NCBI RefSeq assembly: GCF_030295385.1
Contig: NZ_AP027079.1
Span: 1,674,001-1,738,000 of the forward strand
DNA: 64,000 nt
Direction: 5' to 3'
From: Geothrix oryzae
GTDB lineage: Bacteria > Acidobacteriota > Holophagae > Holophagales > Holophagaceae
Every line of letters starts with the position of its first letter. The stretch's first letter is position 1. The notes beneath the pieces were generated by a model, which saw nothing but the letters and a program-made list of their open reading frames with translations, had not been told where the DNA came from and did no database searches. A program made the translations under genes and the position numbers. This document shows positions 5,058 to 12,609 of this stretch, in pieces.

Positions 5058-5810
5058 TCAACGGAGTCCGCCGGCGAGGGCCTGCGACAGGGACTTGCCC
5101 GCGGCGAGAGCCTGCACGAGCGCCGAGCCGATGACGGGCGTGGCGTCCATGTCCCGCACCGCCGCCAGGCTGGCGGGATCGGAGAGGCCGAAGCCCACCG
5201 CCAGAGGTCGACTCGTGGCCGCGCGCAGGTAGGCCAGCCGCTCGCGCACGGGGGCCAGGTCGGTGCCCTGCCCCGTCCCCGTGACGCCCAGGCGAGCCAC
5301 CACATAGGCGAACCGCTGGGCGAAGGGTGCGGAGGGGCCGGGGTCCGGCCGTTCCGACAGCACCTGCCGGGCCCGGGCCAGGGTCGTGGTGGGCGCCAGC
5401 AGCGGCACCATCGGATAGCCCGCGGCACGCAGATCCGCTTCGAATTCGGGTTCCTCTCCAAAAGGCAGGTCCACCACCAGCAGCGCTTTCACCGGCGTGG
5501 GCGCCAGCAGCGCCTTCAGCCGATCCGCGCCGAGCTGGAACAGGGGATTCAGGTAGGTGAAGAGGATGAGGTCCGGACTTTCCGTGATTCCCGCGAGGGA
5601 TTGGAGCACCCGGAGGGGCGTGGCGCCCCGGGCGATGGCGCGCTGGGCCGCGGCTTGGAGCACGGGGCCGTCCGCGATGGGATCCGAGTGCGGCAGCCCC
5701 AGCTCGAGGGCCTCGATGCCGAGGGATCTGGCCTCAGAAAGCATAGCGGGCAGCGCTTCAAGGCTGGGATCACCGGCCATCAGGAAAGGGAGCAGCGGGT
5801 TCAGGTTCAT
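5058..5810 (-). CDS. trpA: Tryptophan synthase alpha subunit
   Basis: A 250-residue TIM barrel that cleaves indole-3-glycerol phosphate to indole and glyceraldehyde 3-phosphate, passing indole to TrpB. The catalytic pair is present in ELGLPHSDPIADGP as E36 and D47. The phosphate-binding GVTGTG and VGFGLSDP segments are also intact. The ATG at 5810 is one base after the trpB stop (TGAGATG), so translation is coupled. It is the last gene of the operon. A 12-bp palindrome, GATCTTAAGATC (5045-5056), follows the stop directly but has no T-run. Confidence 0.96.
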   Translation of the reverse strand: MNLNPLLPFLMAGDPSLEALPAMLSEARSLGIEALELGLPHSDPIADGPVLQAAAQRAIARGATPLRVLQSLAGITESPDLILFTYLNPLFQLGADRLKALLAPTPVKALLVVDLPFGEEPEFEADLRAAGYPMVPLLAPTTTLARARQVLSERPDPGPSAPFAQRFAYVVARLGVTGTGQGTDLAPVRERLAYLRAATSRPLAVGFGLSDPASLAAVRDMDATPVIGSALVQALAAGKSLSQALAGGLR

Positions 5811-5811
5811 C

Positions 5812-6996
5812 TCAGATCCCCAGGCGCGACTGATAGGTGGACAGGTCCTTGTCGCCCCGACCGCTGAGGCCCAGCAGGATGGTGGCGGCGCCTTCGGCAG
5901 CGAGGGCGGGCAGCAGGGCCAGGGCGTGGCTGCTCTCCAGGGCCGGCAGGATGCCCTCTCTTTCGCAGAGCAGGCGCGCCCCGGCCAGGGCTTCGTCATC
6001 GGAGGCGCGGCGCACCTCCACCTGACCGTCCAGCGCCAGGGCCGCGAGTTCAGGGCCCAGCGCCGGGTAGTCCAGCCCGGCGCTGATGCTTGCGGTTTCC
6101 GCCGTGTGGCCGTGCTCGTCCTGGAGCAGCAGGGTCTTGCAGCCATGCAGGACACCCATGCGGCCTCCGTCCAGCCGGGCCGCGTGCTCGCCCAGCGCCA
6201 GGCCATGCCCCCCGGCCTCGACGGCCACTCGGCGCAGGTCGTCGCCCAGGAAAGGCACCAGCAAACCCAGGCCGTTGCTGCCACCGCCGGCGCAGGCGAG
6301 GACGACCTCGGGCAAATGCCCGTATTGCTCCAGCACCTGCACCCGGGCTTCCTCGCCAATCACCGTCTGGAAGCTGCGCACCAGGGTCGGGAACGGATGG
6401 GGCCCCAGCGCGGACCCCAAGATGTAGTGGGCGCGGTCGCAGCGGCCGGCCCAGGCCCGCAGGGCCTCGTTCACCGCCTCCTTGAGCGTGCCCTGCCCGG
6501 CTTCCACGGGCACGACCTGCGTGCCGAAGAGCCGCATCCGCGCCACATTCGGCGCCTGGCGGGCCATGTCAGTGACGCCCATGTAGACGGTGCAGGACAA
6601 TCCCAGGCGGGCGCAGGCCGCCGCCGTGGCCACGCCGTGCTGACCCGCGCCGGTCTCCGCGATGATCTCCGTCTTGCCCATGCGCCGCGCCAGGAGGGCC
6701 TGGGCCAGGGCGTTGTTGATCTTGTGCGCGCCCGTGTGGGTGAGGTCCTCGCGCTTGAGGAAGAGTGCTTTCAGGCCCAGCTTCCCGGCCAGGCGCGGCG
6801 CAGCCGTGAGCGGCGTGGGCCGGCCCACGAAGTGGCGCAGCTCCACCTTCAGCTCGGCGAGGAAGGCCGGATCGTGGGAGGCCGCGAGAAAGGCCGCCTC
6901 CAGGTCGAGCAAGGGCTGCATGAGCGTTTCCGGCGCGTAGCAGCCGCCGAGGGCCTGCGTCCCGAACCGCGTGGGGAGTTCGAATCCGGTGGTCAT
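5812..6996 (-). CDS. trpB: Tryptophan synthase beta subunit
   Basis: A 394-residue PLP enzyme that joins indole and serine to make tryptophan. The Schiff-base lysine is K92 in GAHKINNAL. The ETGAGQHG loop, the GGGSNG phosphate-binding loop for PLP, and SAGLDYPALGPE are all typical of the TrpB1 family. Length matches the canonical form rather than the longer TrpB2. The start codon overlaps the trpF stop by 4 nt (ATGA), and trpA follows at once, as expected for an alpha2-beta2 complex. Confidence 0.97.
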   Translation of the reverse strand: MTTGFELPTRFGTQALGGCYAPETLMQPLLDLEAAFLAASHDPAFLAELKVELRHFVGRPTPLTAAPRLAGKLGLKALFLKREDLTHTGAHKINNALAQALLARRMGKTEIIAETGAGQHGVATAAACARLGLSCTVYMGVTDMARQAPNVARMRLFGTQVVPVEAGQGTLKEAVNEALRAWAGRCDRAHYILGSALGPHPFPTLVRSFQTVIGEEARVQVLEQYGHLPEVVLACAGGGSNGLGLLVPFLGDDLRRVAVEAGGHGLALGEHAARLDGGRMGVLHGCKTLLLQDEHGHTAETASISAGLDYPALGPELAALALDGQVEVRRASDDEALAGARLLCEREGILPALESSHALALLPALAAEGAATILLGLSGRGDKDLSTYQSRLGI

Positions 6997-7613
6997 GGGT
7001 GCTCCAGATGGTGGGCGGCGGCGATGAATGCGCCGACTTTCGCGGCGTCTTTGCGGCCCGGGGCCGACTCCAGTCGGCTGGCCGCGTCGAAGCCCCGCAA
7101 CTGGGGGCCGGCGGAGGGCGGCAGGGCCGCGGCGCGGGGAGCCAGAGAGGCCCCGTCCAGTCCGCCCGCGAGCAAGAAGGGGCCCGGCGGCGGGAAGGCC
7201 ATGCCGTGGCCCTGCCCCGAGCCCCCGACCACACCCGTTTGCGCGGGACTGGCCTCCCAGAGGTAGAGGTCCGCAGGAAGGGCCGCCTGGCCGGGCTCAT
7301 CCGGCCAGGGCAGCAGGACGAAGAGCCCGGCCTCCCGCAGCAGGGCCACACCGCACTCCCGTTCTGCGGCCGGCAGGTAGGGCTGCACGCGGCGGAACCC
7401 ATGGCGCCGTGCCACCTCGAGCAGGTCTTCAGCGCGTTCCGCCACGGACACGAGTACCGCGCGATCCAGATGGGCCTCCGCCACAGCGAGGTCCACGCAG
7501 TGACGCGGGCTGGGGGGATGCGCCACGAACCCCAGCAGGTCCGCGCCCTGGTCCGCGGCGAAGGCCGCATCCTCGGCCGTGGTGAGGCCGCAGACCTTGG
7601 CCAGCAGGCTCAT
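6993..7613 (-). CDS. trpF: Phosphoribosylanthranilate isomerase
   Basis: A 206-residue TIM-barrel isomerase converting phosphoribosylanthranilate to the carboxyphenylamino-deoxyribulose phosphate. KVCGLT carries the catalytic Cys (C8). LLAGGLDG and GFDAASRLES correspond to the usual LAGGL and GVDVSSGVE phosphate-binding segments, somewhat diverged. It overlaps trpC upstream and trpB downstream by 4 nt each. It is a separate gene, not fused to trpC as in enterics. Confidence 0.93.
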   Translation of the reverse strand: MSLLAKVCGLTTAEDAAFAADQGADLLGFVAHPPSPRHCVDLAVAEAHLDRAVLVSVAERAEDLLEVARRHGFRRVQPYLPAAERECGVALLREAGLFVLLPWPDEPGQAALPADLYLWEASPAQTGVVGGSGQGHGMAFPPPGPFLLAGGLDGASLAPRAAALPPSAGPQLRGFDAASRLESAPGRKDAAKVGAFIAAAHHLEHP

Positions 7614-8443
7614 CGGGCCTCCTGCCGGAGGTCGGCGAAGACCCGCTCCAGGAACCCCTTCGGATCCGGGCTCCGCATGAGCGCCTCGCCAATGAGCACC
7701 GCGTCGAAGCCGGTCCGCAGCGCGGTGCGCGCATCCTCCGGCGTGGCGAGTCCGGATTCGCGGATCAGCACCGCCTCCGGAAAGACCCGGCGCAGGGGCT
7801 CGGCCGTGGGCACGCCGAGGTTGAAGGTCGAGAGATCCCGGGCATTGATGCCCACCAGGCGGGCCTGGGCCTCCTGGGCGAAGGCCACCTCGGTGAGGTC
7901 GTGCAGCTCCACCAGGGGCTCCAGGCCGCGGGCGCGCGCCGCCTCCGCAAAGGCCGCCGTGTGGCCCTTGAGCACGCGGGCGATGAGCAGCACGGCCTCG
8001 GCGCCGCAGGCCTCCGCCTCGGCCAGCTGGGCCTCGGCGATCACGAAGCCCTTGTAGAGCCGGGGCCGGTCGAGTTCTGCCGCGAGGCGGATGTGGTTGG
8101 CGTCACCCCGGAAGAGGAAGGGCTCCGCGAGGATGGAGAAGGCCGCGGCACCGCCTTCGCGGTAGGCCTGGAGCTGGGCCAGCAGCGGGGTTCCGGCGGC
8201 GAAGGGGCCGAGAGAGGGCGAAGCCTGCTTGTATTCGGCGATGACCGCGCCGCCCTTTTCGATTCCATCGCGCCGCAGCGCGGCCTCGAAGGGACCGCCT
8301 CCGGCGAGCCGGGGCCGGACCGGGGAGGGCGTGGCGAGCCGGCCGACCCGCGCGAGCTCCGCGACCAGCACTCTCTGGAGGTGGGATCGAGAGGAGAGGC
8401 CCGTATCGCCCACCAGGAGGGCGGGATCGGGAAGGCGGCTCAT
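7610..8443 (-). CDS. trpC: Indole-3-glycerol phosphate synthase
   Basis: A 277-residue TIM barrel that closes the indole ring. AEYKQASPSLG replaces the more common AEIKxxSPSKG but keeps the catalytic Glu and Lys. YKGFVI supplies the strand-3 lysine, LVELHD the Glu, GINARDLSTF the Asn, and IRESGL the Ser of the phosphate site. All catalytic positions are therefore present despite drift around them. It is joined to trpD and trpF by 4-nt overlaps. Confidence 0.94.
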   Translation of the reverse strand: MSRLPDPALLVGDTGLSSRSHLQRVLVAELARVGRLATPSPVRPRLAGGGPFEAALRRDGIEKGGAVIAEYKQASPSLGPFAAGTPLLAQLQAYREGGAAAFSILAEPFLFRGDANHIRLAAELDRPRLYKGFVIAEAQLAEAEACGAEAVLLIARVLKGHTAAFAEAARARGLEPLVELHDLTEVAFAQEAQARLVGINARDLSTFNLGVPTAEPLRRVFPEAVLIRESGLATPEDARTALRTGFDAVLIGEALMRSPDPKGFLERVFADLRQEAR

Positions 8444-9498
8444 GGCTGCACCCCCGCGGCAGAGTCCGGGGTGGCGCCCGGGGTCGGGAATGGCAGTGCG
8501 AACCCGCGGTCCAGGGCAGCCCGGGTCTCCTGATAGGCCCGGGGCAGGCCCTCGAGCCCCTGATTCCGATGGAGCTGCAGGCCGAGTCCCGCCTGCAGGG
8601 CCACTGCGTCCGCCACGGCAGGTCTGAAGTCCGCGTGACCCGCCCCGCCGAAGATGCCCCGGGCCACGGCGAGGGCCTCGGCCCGGTCCGCGACGCGCAG
8701 GGCATGGCGCGGCGGTTGGCCGATGCCCAACTCCCGGGGCACCAGCACCTGGAGGGCCTGGACCCGCCCGTCCACCACCGACTGGACCGTGGTGGGCCCT
8801 TCGATGGAGGCTTCATCCAGCCCCTTCCCCTCGGCATCCTTGCCGTGGATCACGAAGGCCCGCCGCAGGGTCGGCCGCTGCGCCAGGGCCCCGGCCATGG
8901 GGGCCAGCAGTTCCTCGCGGGCCACGCCCAGCAGCTGCAGGGGCGGGTTCGCAGGATTCAGCAACGGGCCCAGCAGATTGAAGATGGTGGGAATCCCCAA
9001 CCGGCGGCGGATCTCCCGCAGGCGCCCCAGAAGCGGGTGGTAGGCCGGCGCGAAGAGGAAGGCGAAGCTGTGGGCCTGCAGGTCCTGCGACAGGTCGGCG
9101 CTGGCCCGGGCCAGGTCGTAGCCCAGGGCCTCCAGCAGGTCGGCGCTGCCGCAGACGCTGGTGGCGGCGCGGTTGCCGTGCTTGACGATGGGGACACCGA
9201 GGTGCGCCAGCAGCAGGGCCGCCAGGGTGCTGAGGTTGGCGGTGGAGGCCCCGTCGCCGCCGGTGCCGCAGGTGTCGAGCGCCCCTTCGGGCAGAGCCGG
9301 GAACGGCACGGCCACTTCGGAGAGGGCCCCGGCGAAGGCCGCCAGCTCGTGGGCTTCGGGCACCCGCTGGGCCAGGAGGGCCAGGCAGGCCCCCACCAGC
9401 AGGGCGTCCGTGTCCTGGTCGATGAAGATGCGCATGAGCTCCGAGGCCGTGGCCTCGGGCAACGGGCGGATGGGATTGTGGGTGGTGAGCAGGGTCAT
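8440..9498 (-). CDS. trpD: Anthranilate phosphoribosyltransferase
   Basis: A 352-residue transferase that attaches phosphoribose from PRPP to anthranilate. DTCGTGGDGASTANLST is the glycine-rich PRPP loop. KHGNRAATSVCGSAD supplies the anthranilate-site residues, and FNLLGPLLNPA is also characteristic. The frame is open far upstream across trpG, but the ATG at 9498 overlaps the trpG stop by 4 nt and gives the family length. It is an unfused TrpD. Confidence 0.95.
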   Translation of the reverse strand: MTLLTTHNPIRPLPEATASELMRIFIDQDTDALLVGACLALLAQRVPEAHELAAFAGALSEVAVPFPALPEGALDTCGTGGDGASTANLSTLAALLLAHLGVPIVKHGNRAATSVCGSADLLEALGYDLARASADLSQDLQAHSFAFLFAPAYHPLLGRLREIRRRLGIPTIFNLLGPLLNPANPPLQLLGVAREELLAPMAGALAQRPTLRRAFVIHGKDAEGKGLDEASIEGPTTVQSVVDGRVQALQVLVPRELGIGQPPRHALRVADRAEALAVARGIFGGAGHADFRPAVADAVALQAGLGLQLHRNQGLEGLPRAYQETRAALDRGFALPFPTPGATPDSAAGVQP

Positions 9499-10070
9499 CG
9501 GGATTCCTTGGCCATCCGGAGGAAGTTGGCGAGCATGGCCGGGCCGTCCGGCGTGAGGATGCTTTCGGGGTGGAACTGCACGCCCCAGCGGGGCAGCTGG
9601 CGGTGGGCCATGGCCATGATTTCGCCGCCGGGGCTGCGGCCCGTCACGCGCCAGCAGGAGGGCAGCGAGGCCGGCTCGGCGATGAGGCTGTGGTAGCGGC
9701 CCACGGGCAGGTCCGGCGCCAGCCCCAGGAAGAGGCCGGTGCCCTCGTGCTCCAGGGGCGTGGCCTCGCCGTGCAGGGGCTCGAGGGCGCGGATGACCCG
9801 GCCCCCCGTGGCCGCCGCCAGGGCCTGATGCCCCAGGCAGACGCCCAGCAGCGGGATGTCCCAATCCGAGCCCGCCAGGGCCATGTGGGCGGGGCTTTCC
9901 GTGGGGTGGCCCGGCCCCGGCGACAGCACCACGGCCTCGGGCCGGAGGGCCTTGGCCTCCTCGAGGCCGATGGCGTCGTGCCGCACCACGCGCACCGGCA
10001 TCCCCAGCGTCTCGAAGGCCTGCACCAGGTTGTAGGTGAAGGAATCCAGGGCATCAATCAGGAGGATCAT
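9495..10070 (-). CDS. trpG: Anthranilate synthase glutamine amidotransferase subunit
   Basis: A 191-residue class I glutamine amidotransferase that gives ammonia to TrpE. GVCLGHQA holds the nucleophilic Cys, and GVQFHPESILTPDG holds the catalytic His and Glu. DALDSFTYNLVQ and VVLSPGPGHP are the other family blocks. The same subunit can also serve PabB in folate synthesis; no pabB is visible here. The start at 10070 overlaps the trpE stop by 4 nt. Confidence 0.95.
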   Translation of the reverse strand: MILLIDALDSFTYNLVQAFETLGMPVRVVRHDAIGLEEAKALRPEAVVLSPGPGHPTESPAHMALAGSDWDIPLLGVCLGHQALAAATGGRVIRALEPLHGEATPLEHEGTGLFLGLAPDLPVGRYHSLIAEPASLPSCWRVTGRSPGGEIMAMAHRQLPRWGVQFHPESILTPDGPAMLANFLRMAKESR

Positions 10071-11452
10071 CGCGAGGCTCCGGGCAGCTGGACCCCGAGG
10101 GCCTGGGCGACAGCGCCCAGCTTGTGCAGGGTCTCGAAGTATTCGGATTCCGGTTTCGAGGCCCGCACCACGCCGGCCCCGGCCTGGAGGTAGGCGGCTC
10201 CCCCGGCGTAGACCGCCGTGCGGAGGATGAGGGCCGTGTCCAGGATCCCGTCCGTCCCCAGCCGCAGCAGGACGCCGCCGTAGGGTCCGCGGACCTCGCC
10301 TTCCAGCTCCGCGATGCGCTGGCAGGCCCGGAGTTTGGGAGCGCCGCTCACGGTGCCCGCGGGGAAGGCCGCCGCCAGCACATCCAGGGCATCCACGCCC
10401 GCCCGCAACTTCGCCTTCACCGTGGTGGTGAGGTGCAGGACATGGCTGGTGCGCTGGAGGGCCAGGGGCTTCTCCACCCGGACCCCGCCGGGCACGGCCA
10501 CGCGGCCCAGGTCGTTGCGGGCCAGGTCCACCAGCATCTGGTGCTCGGCCAACTCCTTCGGATCCCGCTTCAGGGCCTCGAAGCGGGAGGCGTCCTCCTC
10601 GGCGTTGGCGCCTCTGGGCACTGTGCCGGCGATGGGCAGGGTCTCGGCCTCGCCGTCCTGCACCCGCACCAGCATCTCCGGGGAGGCGCCCACCAGGGCG
10701 AAATTCCCCCATTCAAGCAGGAAGCCATAGGGGCTCGGATTCAATCGGCGCAGGCGGCGGTAGGCCTCCAGGGGAGGCGGCGGATCCTCCACACGGAAGC
10801 GCTGGCTGGGCACCAGCTGGTAGATGTCGCCATCGAGAATGCGCTCCTGGGCCTGAGTCACCGCGCGTTCGTAGGTTTCGCGGTCCGTCAGGGCCTGGGC
10901 CCTCGGGTGGGAGGTGCCGGGTCCCGGATCGCGCACGCCCGCCAGCAGCCGGGCCCGCAGCTCCCGCAGGCGCCGGAAACCGGCCTCGGCGTCGGCATCC
11001 ACGGTCTGAAGCTCGGCCACCTGGTGCAGGTGGTCGAAGACCAGGGCCGCGTCGAAGCGCTTCACCCAGAGGCCCGGCAAGCCCAGCCCGTCCCGGACGG
11101 GCAGCGGAAGGGTGGGCTCCTGGGCGCCCATGGCCTCGAAACCGAGATAGCCCGCGCACCCGATGCCGATGGGCAGGGGCTCCCGGAGCGCGGGGAGCTC
11201 GGCGCCCGGATCATGGATGGCCCCGGACGGCGGGGCTCCGGCCAGCCCCCGCAGGGCCTCGGTCCAACCCCGGGCGGGAGGGATCAGGCGGCATTCCGCC
11301 GGACCTTCCAGCAGCACGAAGCTGTGGCGGCCCACCCGTTCGCCCTGATCGCAGGACTCCAACAGGAGGCTGGCTCCGACCGGCCGCAGGGCCAGGTAGG
11401 CGGCCAGGGGCGTCAGCAGATCGGCGGGAAAGGGATGGCGGATCAGGTGCAT
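10067..11452 (-). CDS. trpE: Anthranilate synthase component I
   Basis: A 461-residue chorismate-using enzyme and the first committed step to tryptophan. The C-terminal chorismate-binding domain shows PIAGTVPRG, ELAEHQMLVDLARNDLGRV, the AAAFPAGTVSGAPK block and GGVLLRLG. The N-terminal LLES motif (residues about 29-33) matches the Trp feedback-inhibition site of TrpE. The frame extends to a TTG at 11470 inside the terminator U-tract, so the ATG at 11452 is preferred. It has only a weak GGATG upstream. The gene follows the attenuator directly, so its expression should fall when charged tRNA-Trp is plentiful. Confidence 0.95.
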   Translation of the reverse strand: MHLIRHPFPADLLTPLAAYLALRPVGASLLLESCDQGERVGRHSFVLLEGPAECRLIPPARGWTEALRGLAGAPPSGAIHDPGAELPALREPLPIGIGCAGYLGFEAMGAQEPTLPLPVRDGLGLPGLWVKRFDAALVFDHLHQVAELQTVDADAEAGFRRLRELRARLLAGVRDPGPGTSHPRAQALTDRETYERAVTQAQERILDGDIYQLVPSQRFRVEDPPPPLEAYRRLRRLNPSPYGFLLEWGNFALVGASPEMLVRVQDGEAETLPIAGTVPRGANAEEDASRFEALKRDPKELAEHQMLVDLARNDLGRVAVPGGVRVEKPLALQRTSHVLHLTTTVKAKLRAGVDALDVLAAAFPAGTVSGAPKLRACQRIAELEGEVRGPYGGVLLRLGTDGILDTALILRTAVYAGGAAYLQAGAGVVRASKPESEYFETLHKLGAVAQALGVQLPGASR

Positions 11453-11468
11453 GGGGTCATCCAAATGC

Positions 11469-11495
11469 AAAAAAGCCCGACCATGGGGTCGGGCT
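11469..11495 (-). terminator. trp operon attenuator (intrinsic terminator)
   Basis: On the minus strand a 9-bp GC-rich stem (11495-11487 with 11482-11474), with the loop CCAT (11486-11483), is followed by a run of six T (11474-11469), 16 nt before the trpE ATG. A terminator placed between the leader peptide and the first structural gene is the hallmark of transcription attenuation. A competing antiterminator may form between GGCTC just after the leader Trp codons (11542-11538) and GAGCC (11496-11492), which overlaps the terminator's left arm. Confidence 0.85.
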
Positions 11496-11521
11496 CGGAA
11501 GGTCCGGGGTGGCAGCGGCCG

Positions 11522-11614
11522 TCAGGCCTCGCCAAGGGAGCCGTCCGAACCCACGCGCCACCAATAGGCCCCGAAAAGGAGGCCCCGGCGCAGGGAGGGG
11601 AAGGACAGCAGCAT
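11522..11614 (-). CDS. trpL: trp leader peptide with tandem Trp codons
   Basis: A 30-codon ORF (ATG at 11614, TGA at 11524-11522) upstream of the attenuator. It encodes AYWWRV near its middle, with the two adjacent Trp codons TGG TGG at 11563-11558. Trp is rare, so a WW pair in a short ORF followed by a terminator and trpE is strong evidence for ribosome-mediated attenuation. A stall at WW leaves downstream RNA (GGCTC, 11542-11538) free to pair with the left arm of the terminator. Translation to the stop would mask it. No ribosome-binding site precedes the ATG, and the predicted transcription start falls at or within a few bases of it, so this may be a leaderless message. Confidence 0.85.
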   Translation of the reverse strand: MLLSFPSLRRGLLFGAYWWRVGSDGSLGEA

Positions 11615-11621
11615 GGATGCG

Positions 11622-11651
11622 ATGAAACCCCACCGGCCCCGGCCCTGTCAA
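11622..11651 (-). promoter_or_regulatory. trp operon promoter
   Basis: A perfect TTGACA -35 hexamer (11651-11646) and TTTCAT (11627-11622, 4 of 6 to TATAAT) are separated by 18 bp. The expected transcription start is at or just before the trpL ATG (11614). The region also lies upstream of the divergent gene at 11686. Confidence 0.65.
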
Positions 11652-11685
11652 GTGTGGTTTGATGAAGGATTGTTTGCGGACGGCC

Positions 11686-12609
11686 ATGAGCTTCGAGGAA
11701 GAGCCCCCCACCACCATCCACACCGAGGAAGCCCTGTCGCCCCGGGCGCCCTGGTCCTTCCTGGCCCCCGCCCTGCCCGGCGGCTTCGGCCGCTGGGGCT
11801 GGGGCCTCATGGCGGGCTGGGCGCTGGTCCTGCTGGGCCCCTCGCTGGGCTGGGCGGGCCATCTTCGTCGGGCCGCCGGCTGGAGCGCCCTGCCCAGCCA
11901 CTGGGGCGAAGGGATCAGCGCCCGTGACATCTGGGAGCTGTGGGTGAACGGCGGGCTCCAGCACCGTGCGGCCAATTCGCCGACGGTGCACCTGCTGGGC
12001 GTCGGCCTGGTGATCGTGCTCTGGTGCGGCTGGCGCCTCCAGGCGGAAGCCGGCGGACAGAAGGCCCGGCTGGGCTCCTGGCTGCTGGGCGCCCTGGACA
12101 CCCTGCTGATCGGCCTCCTGCCTGTGGGCCTGGTCGGCTGGGCGGCCTATTCTGCCCTGGCCTGGGCCGGGGGCCTGGGCATCGACGGGCTCGGCTGGAT
12201 GGCCTTCTTCGGGCGTCCGCTGGTGGTGATGGCGACCGTCGCCGCCCTGAACCTCCAGTGGTGGTTCTGTCGGCTCGGGCGCGCCGCGGGGCTCTCCCGA
12301 GGCTACTGGGCGCACCTGGCGGACTCCTTCCTGCGGCTCTGGCTGCATCCGATCCAGTGGGGCCTCGTGAATCTCGGGGGCGCCGCCCTGCGCGCCCTGC
12401 TCCCCTTCCTGGTGCTGCTGCTGGCCTGGCGCTTGGGGGGCGGCACCACCTTCCGGGTCTGGCTGTTCCTGCTGCTGCAACTGGCCGTCACCCTGATCAA
12501 CGGCTGGCTGATGGGCTGGTTGCTCCGCGTCGCCGCCCACTTCTGGACCCATGATGCCGCCGTGCGGGATGCCCTGGCGGCCTTGAAGGAAGATGCCCGT
12601 GAAGCCTGA
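11686..12609 (+). CDS. Multi-pass membrane protein of unknown function
   Basis: I do not recognise a named family. The 307-residue product has a soluble N-terminus rich in Glu and Pro. It then has about six hydrophobic segments (for example WGLMAGWALVLLGPSLG, VHLLGVGLVIVLWCGW, LLIGLLPVGLVGWAAY, LLPFLVLLLAW, WLFLLLQLAVTLI) and is rich in Trp and Gly. The start at 11686 is the ATG nearest the hydrophobic core; TTG and ATG codons at 11659 and 11662 are alternatives. Its end overlaps the next gene, so it is probably cotranscribed with the split 5'-nucleotidase genes and could anchor or serve them at the membrane. That link is inference from position. Confidence 0.7.
   Translation: MSFEEEPPTTIHTEEALSPRAPWSFLAPALPGGFGRWGWGLMAGWALVLLGPSLGWAGHLRRAAGWSALPSHWGEGISARDIWELWVNGGLQHRAANSPTVHLLGVGLVIVLWCGWRLQAEAGGQKARLGSWLLGALDTLLIGLLPVGLVGWAAYSALAWAGGLGIDGLGWMAFFGRPLVVMATVAALNLQWWFCRLGRAAGLSRGYWAHLADSFLRLWLHPIQWGLVNLGGAALRALLPFLVLLLAWRLGGGTTFRVWLFLLLQLAVTLINGWLMGWLLRVAAHFWTHDAAVRDALAALKEDAREA

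Follow-up and report, generated by a model that had tools for sequence, protein, structure and literature searches.

A tryptophan-codon leader precedes the trp operon

The window, the whole stretch of DNA analysed here, comprises 64,000 nucleotides of the genome of Geothrix oryzae, whose genus belongs to the Holophagaceae (Acidobacteriota) and is typical of soils and sediments. Its minus strand carries a seven-gene tryptophan biosynthesis operon whose order, trpE-G-D-C-F-B-A, was confirmed by family matches and stop-free translations and agrees with the operon named in the original prediction for this DNA. The ATG of trpE lies at 11452, 16 nt 3′ of a T6 run on the same strand. The features of the locus are as follows, in the order of transcription.

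11646–11651, minus strand: −35 box TTGACA, read from the sequence
11622–11627, minus strand: probable −10 box TTTCAT, read from the sequence, after a spacer of 18 nt and with the ATG 7 nt further on
11522–11614, minus strand: leader peptide ORF from the ORF list, 30 amino acids (MLLSFPSLRRGLLFGAYWWRVGSDGSLGEA), ATG start, stop TGA, probably leaderless
11603–11609, minus strand: region 1, GCUGUCC, with GGACGGC as partner
11550–11595, minus strand: predicted hairpin P1 (from the predicted fold), enclosed by the 1:2 helix, with the Trp codons in its 3′ side
11558–11563, minus strand: tandem Trp codons 18 and 19 (TGG TGG), from the sequence and the ORF
11541–11552, minus strand: region 2, 5′ arm of the antiterminator, GGGUUCGGACGG, from the alignment; overlaps the 1:2 partner at 11546–11540
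11517–11528, minus strand: small GGCC-UGAC-GGCC stem within the loop of the antiterminator, its own loop holding the stop codon
11491–11502, minus strand: region 3, 3′ arm of the antiterminator, CCUUCCGAGCCC, from the alignment; its GAGCCC is common to the terminator
11473–11496, minus strand: intrinsic terminator hairpin, regions 3:4, GAGCCCGACC-CCAU-GGUCGGGCUU, from a mechanical terminator scan and the alignment
11469–11474, minus strand: T run of the terminator, read from the sequence
10070–11452, minus strand: trpE, family match
9498–10070, minus strand: trpG, family match and translation
8443–9498, minus strand: trpD, family match and translation
7613–8443, minus strand: trpC, family match and translation
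6996–7613, minus strand: trpF, family match with weak scores and translation
5815–6996, minus strand: trpB, family match and translation
5061–5810, minus strand: trpA, family match and translation

The original prediction had proposed a ribosome-mediated attenuator made of a 30-codon ORF with TGG TGG at 11563–11558, a GC stem with a T6 run 16 nt before trpE and an upstream TTGACA promoter. The ORF and its Trp codons were borne out at these coordinates on the minus strand, TTGACA is present at 11651–11646, and the hairpin was also picked up by the mechanical scan, which gives its DNA form as GAGCCCGACC-CCAT-GGTCGGGCTT followed by Ts to 11469. Of 20,000 resamplings that randomised the region dinucleotide-style, none placed a perfect terminator after a short ORF containing WW; the leader arrangement is not a chance product. 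The −10 box is a weak match that fell below detection in a generic promoter scan. Its position is kept among congeners, with the variants TTACAT, TTTTAT, TTTGAT, and TCTGAT.

A genome search found no further copies of the element, apart from the same terminator echoed on the reverse strand. Another place in the genome matches over 34 bp; this match is on the side of the divergent gene and outside the leader, and was rejected as a leader copy. The divergent ORF itself (316 amino acids, window 11659–12609, plus strand) is hydrophobic, gave no NCBIfam match and has its intergenic region in common with the trp promoter.

Conservation of the leader in Geothrix and the Holophagaceae

A close trpE match was present in 46 of 47 Geothrix genomes, named records of which include G. 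fermentans DSM 14018 and G. paludis, and the same leader layout was found in all 46. The leader ORF, presumably translated, has 30 codons in 45 of these congeners and 31 in one, and each carries at least two Trp within codons 17–19 (17–20 in L028), in the form WW, WWW, WRW, WYW, or WFW, 5′ of the trp operon. An intrinsic terminator lies between the leader ORF and the first structural gene, and the distance from the stop codon to the terminator end is 54–57 nt throughout the 46. Conservation of the WW codons and the terminator in relatives had been named as a check on the original prediction, which passed it in every congener with trpE. The residues flanking the Trp cluster are variable (AYWWR, AWWWR, GSWWR, AWRWR, AWYWR). 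A very similar GC-rich insert, apparently a REP-like repeat, is located between the attenuator and trpE in L010, L013, L014, L015, L016, and L020 (e.g. GGTGGTTCCGCGCTTCGC...CACCCCATCCCGGCAAAGCCGG).

Judged by sequence, an analogous putative leader is carried by most other trpE-bearing genera of the Holophagaceae. Genera g3, g4, g5, g6, g7, g9, and g10 all have a Trp-rich leader and a terminator before trpE, and in the same seven genera a segment that begins 0–10 nt past the final Trp codon is able to pair into the region of the terminator 5′ arm. Genus g11 gave no trpE match, and the trpE matches in g2 and g8 were weak only. Among other families of the class, four genomes of family f2 had no comparable leader ahead of their best trpE; two genomes of the f2 genus g14 (L069 and L070) carry analogous, leaderless-looking WW/WWW leaders before trpE (MEFRSVNHKCWWHTHFLGWASV; MMTNVVTHKWWWKTQRNRWASV). 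In L069 and L070, region 2 resembles the terminator 3′ arm (GGGTGGGC / GCCCACCC).

The leader ORF appears leaderless

A feature missed in the original prediction is that the leader ORF appears to be translated as a leaderless message. TTGACA lies 30–31 nt 5′ of the leader ATG in all 46 congeners and transcription is therefore expected to start at the ATG; leaderless translation is proposed because the expected start falls at this codon or within about 1–2 nt of it. An SD-like 4-mer is suitably placed in only 2 of the 46 leaders. Similar TTGACA-ATG spacing (about 29–33 nt) occurs in genera g4–g6 and in the transferred copies described below, and leaders of the Geothrix layout all begin with ATG. 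In contrast, a GGA/GGAG-type motif stands at SD distance in leaders of the distant genera g3, g7, g9, and g10, which start mostly with GTG or TTG and sometimes with ATG. This contrast supports the leaderless reading, and the Holophagaceae look to hold the same type of switch in both leaderless and SD-led forms.

The alternative is that the leader ORF has a conventional 5′ UTR transcribed from a start further upstream, which would alter the mode of initiation only and leave attenuation unaffected. The weak −10 match and the SD-led leaders elsewhere in the family speak for such a UTR. The constant spacing, which places the start at the ATG, the scarcity of SD-like motifs and the strict use of ATG in this layout all run against it, and we consider it improbable.

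Three covarying helices with exclusive pairing

The helices were analysed on alignment A1, which contains 45 leaders. The antiterminator 2:3 is formed by GGGUUCGGA (11552–11544) and UCCGAGCCC (11499–11491), with two extra pairs extending to 11541, and begins 3′ of the Trp codons. Across the 45 leaders 97.2% of its cells are paired. Seven cells are altered on both sides, from C-G to U-A, and neither this count nor the covariation score was matched in any of 500 shuffles. An A in column 123 is accompanied by a U in column 71 in seven of seven leaders, and parsimony on a short-DNA tree gives about five changes of that column. Among the congeners, covariation of the antiterminator is confined to a single base pair. 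An independent-pairs test of 71/123 had too few pairs to have power. A second antiterminator pair is changed from A-U to G-C in Lysobacter. The 5′-side change in column 71 replaces Ser by Leu in the peptide, and a compensatory change at the cost of an amino acid indicates that the RNA rather than the peptide is being kept.

In place of this helix, the original prediction had paired GGCTC (11542–11538) with GAGCC (11496–11492). That pairing has a C-A mismatch, without compensation, in 7 of the 45 leaders, and these are exactly the seven that keep the antiterminator as U-A. We therefore replaced it; on the alignment evidence GGGCUCGGA/UCCGAGCCC is the better conserved candidate antiterminator and is kept by compensatory change.

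The 1:2 helix consists of GCUGUCC (11609–11603) and GGACGGC (11546–11540) and would sequester region 2 throughout the genus, with 97.8% of cells paired in the genus alignment. Two of its seven pairs are altered on both sides (in L020 and in L032/L042), in L032/L042 by way of amino-acid changes. The terminator 3:4 is nearly invariant within the genus; three of its pairs are altered on both sides across genera and phyla, so covariation was observed in the 1:2, 2:3, and 3:4 helices alike. Since the pairing segments overlap, helix 2:3 excludes both 1:2 and 3:4. The leader ORF crosses region 2, another point that had been overlooked.

At 11517–11528 a near-invariant GGCC-UGAC/UAGC-GGCC stem holds the stop codon in its loop. 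The inner three pairs of this stem are invariant in the 45 leaders and the outermost pair is kept in 43. The predicted hairpin P1 was considered as a conserved, extra-stable pause hairpin and rejected, since genus-wide its stability does not exceed that of shuffled sequences (mean z −0.77).

Proposed attenuation mechanism and alternative explanations

Ribosome-mediated attenuation is the only reading that fits the Trp clusters, the terminator, the mutually exclusive covarying helices and the lack of a detected TRAP or Trp-repressor gene in the window genome together. We put the probability that the leader is a Trp-codon-dependent, ribosome-mediated transcription attenuator of trpEGDCFBA at about 0.92. 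The attenuation claimed in the original prediction is well supported by the comparative data, although the antiterminator arms that it named did not hold.

From these parts we infer where transcription starts, that the ribosome stalls, how the steps follow one another and that tryptophan governs them. Transcription would begin at the leader ATG or within about 1–2 nt of it. When charged tRNA-Trp is scarce, the ribosome would stall at the Trp codons and melt both P1 and the 1:2 helix, freeing region 2 (GGGUUCGGA), which lies a few nucleotides beyond these codons. Free region 2 would pair with region 3 (UCCGAGCCC) once RNA polymerase has made the latter; because region 3 includes the terminator 5′ arm, this pairing should permit read-through into trpE. 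With ample tryptophan, the ribosome would cover region 2, which the ORF crosses, and halt at the TGA. The 1:2 helix would re-form behind the ribosome at the stop codon, and the terminator GCCCGACC/GGUCGGGC could then form, ending transcription with a leader RNA of about 145 nt.

Folding, another check named with the original prediction, agreed partly with this scheme. If region 2 is free, the antiterminator is predicted as the best structure when RNA polymerase has reached nt 125 (−38.1 kcal/mol), but once the whole leader has been made the minimum-energy fold in the window species keeps the terminator, as GGUUCGG in region 2 can pair instead with CCGGACC. The antiterminator is thus predicted to be optimal only before the terminator 3′ arm is transcribed. 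Because the full-leader fold retains the terminator, the switch must act kinetically, as attenuators do. Ribosome-free RNA to nt 125 is also predicted to fold into the antiterminator and not into the 1:2 helix.

Terminators ahead of operons can be constitutive, and a partial terminator of this kind beside an incidental or housekeeping short ORF would lower trp expression without any sensing of tryptophan. The Trp cluster is nevertheless kept in 46 of 46 congeners despite variable neighbouring residues, compensatory changes preserve a competing helix that abolishes the terminator, and the other genera examined that have trpE likewise carry Trp-rich leaders ahead of this gene, all of which makes a constitutive terminator very unlikely. 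Slightly less likely still is that another tryptophan sensor acts on the leader, namely TRAP (MtrB), a Trp T-box or the Trp repressor, which govern trp operons elsewhere: searches gave no TRAP match in 21 genomes including the window genome and no Trp-repressor match in the window genome while recovering their positive controls, an Rfam scan of the whole window at the gathering score returned a tRNA only and no trp leader, T-box or riboswitch, and none of the three sensors needs a Trp-codon ORF. Two other genomes of the genus, G036 and G043, have matches to the Trp-repressor family PF01371 above cut-off.

We give an equally slight chance to TnaC-like nascent-peptide arrest that senses free tryptophan instead of a shortage of charged tRNA-Trp, since the peptide does contain Trp and a recurrent GSDG segment downstream of it, but the residues around the Trp cluster are variable, the GSDG codons coincide with region 2 and vary in step with the RNA segments that they pair with (Ser to Leu in column 71, Asp to Val in column 74), so that RNA pairing explains the GSDG conservation, and a location before a biosynthetic operon suits shortage sensing too.

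Comparison with known trp attenuators

The trpL leader of E. coli has tandem Trp codons and operates by 1:2 / 2:3 / 3:4 logic; it possesses a 5′ UTR with a ribosome-binding site and a 14-residue peptide whose stop codon precedes region 2, and it acts beside the TrpR repressor. Ribosome-mediated attenuation as proposed for Geothrix shares with it the tandem Trp codons, the helix logic and the identity of the operon. The Geothrix leader differs in that its ORF crosses region 2 and looks leaderless and in that its genome has no detected repressor.

The trpL of Sinorhizobium meliloti is leaderless; transcription is attenuated between this ORF and trpE, and the leader RNA set free begins at the ATG. 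This trpL encodes a 14-residue peptide and its attenuator governs trpE(G), the other trp genes being in a second operon, and both the rnTrpL RNA and the peptide act in trans (PMC7298713). The likeness, drawn from descriptions and not from an alignment of the RNAs, lies in a leaderless-looking Trp leader ORF with attenuation before trpE, whereas the Geothrix leader has 30 residues and stands ahead of a complete seven-gene operon. Attenuators of Streptomyces and Corynebacterium trp genes contain double or triple UGG, an antiterminator and a GC-rich terminator (PMC1262725), and the Geothrix leader, compared without alignment, has clustered UGG, an antiterminator and a GC-rich terminator as well. 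Streptomyces lividans TrpL1 is leaderless, contains WWW, has 18 residues and precedes a monocistronic trpE (PMC8079986), in contrast to the longer leader and full operon in Geothrix, which belongs to another lineage.

Each of the three elements involved, namely trp attenuation, trp leaders that are leaderless and the lateral transfer of trp operons, has precedents. The switch looks undescribed in Acidobacteriota, in line with the original prediction: the open papers searched for trp attenuation in Acidobacteria or Geothrix held no description of this element. It provides a leader element with a clear predicted function across a whole Acidobacteriota family, with helices that are supported by covariation and testable. 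The presence of leaderless and SD-led leaders within one family also makes the effect of initiation mode on the timing of attenuation testable.

Occurrence of the operon and its probable attenuator in other phyla

A search of named genomes identified TrpE proteins 67–68% identical to that of the window in Lysobacter silvestris (an isolate, on a 1.18 Mb contig) and in several Lysobacterales/Pseudomonadota MAGs, and proteins 62–63% identical in two Opitutaceae/Opitutia MAGs (Verrucomicrobiota). The same attenuator lies upstream in the Lysobacterales and Opitutales-type copies, e.g. MHHLPAPCAFPATPRAWWWCRGSGDSPGA with GGCUCGGG/CCCGAGCC and GCCCGGUC/GACCGGGC. The Lysobacterales carriers are L116–L118, L120, L121, and L155, the Opitutales-type carriers L123 and L125, with the operons in L166 and L167. 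L. silvestris has all seven trp genes in the same order, at 55–76% identity; in the Opitutaceae copy the genes run E-G-D-C-B-A, and trpF is missing from its place between C and B. Of 61 genomes sampled from the Lysobacter family, only 2 have Geothrix-type TrpE, and among the remaining Opitutaceae that gave a match the identity of TrpE does not exceed 49%.

In a phylogeny that uses TrpE out of the seven Trp proteins, the Lysobacterales copies are nested among the Holophagaceae (95/89 with L115), and those of Opitutales type fall outside this family. A plasmid carrier of the operon was rejected for the lack of any TrpE match at E ≤ 1e-60 among 72,556 plasmids. The patchy presence of the same trp operon and attenuator in Lysobacterales and Opitutales-type genomes argues for transfer between phyla, and the whole operon seems to have spread together with its switch.

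Movement of whole trp operons between bacteria has precedent in the transfers of Xie et al. 2003 and 2004, as cited in PMC1173090, and is the point of likeness here. No account of a Geothrix-type operon and attenuator in Lysobacterales or Opitutales-type genomes turned up in the papers searched; what is new here is the corrected anatomy of the switch and its unexpected spread across phyla. We see an even chance that the trp operon and its leaderless attenuator form a transferable, self-regulating unit that has moved between Acidobacteriota, Pseudomonadota and Verrucomicrobiota. Such a unit would work in new hosts because it needs neither a dedicated regulator protein nor a host-specific ribosome-binding site, and its occurrence in phyla so far apart suggests that operons carry their attenuators along when they move.

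WWW leaders before trpE were also seen in MAG contigs of Actinomycetota (Thermoleophilia), L129–L131 (e.g. MQGIRNEAWWWLMSGRDPVR). L146, a close relative of these contigs, bears the label Bifidobacterium breve, perhaps through misassignment.
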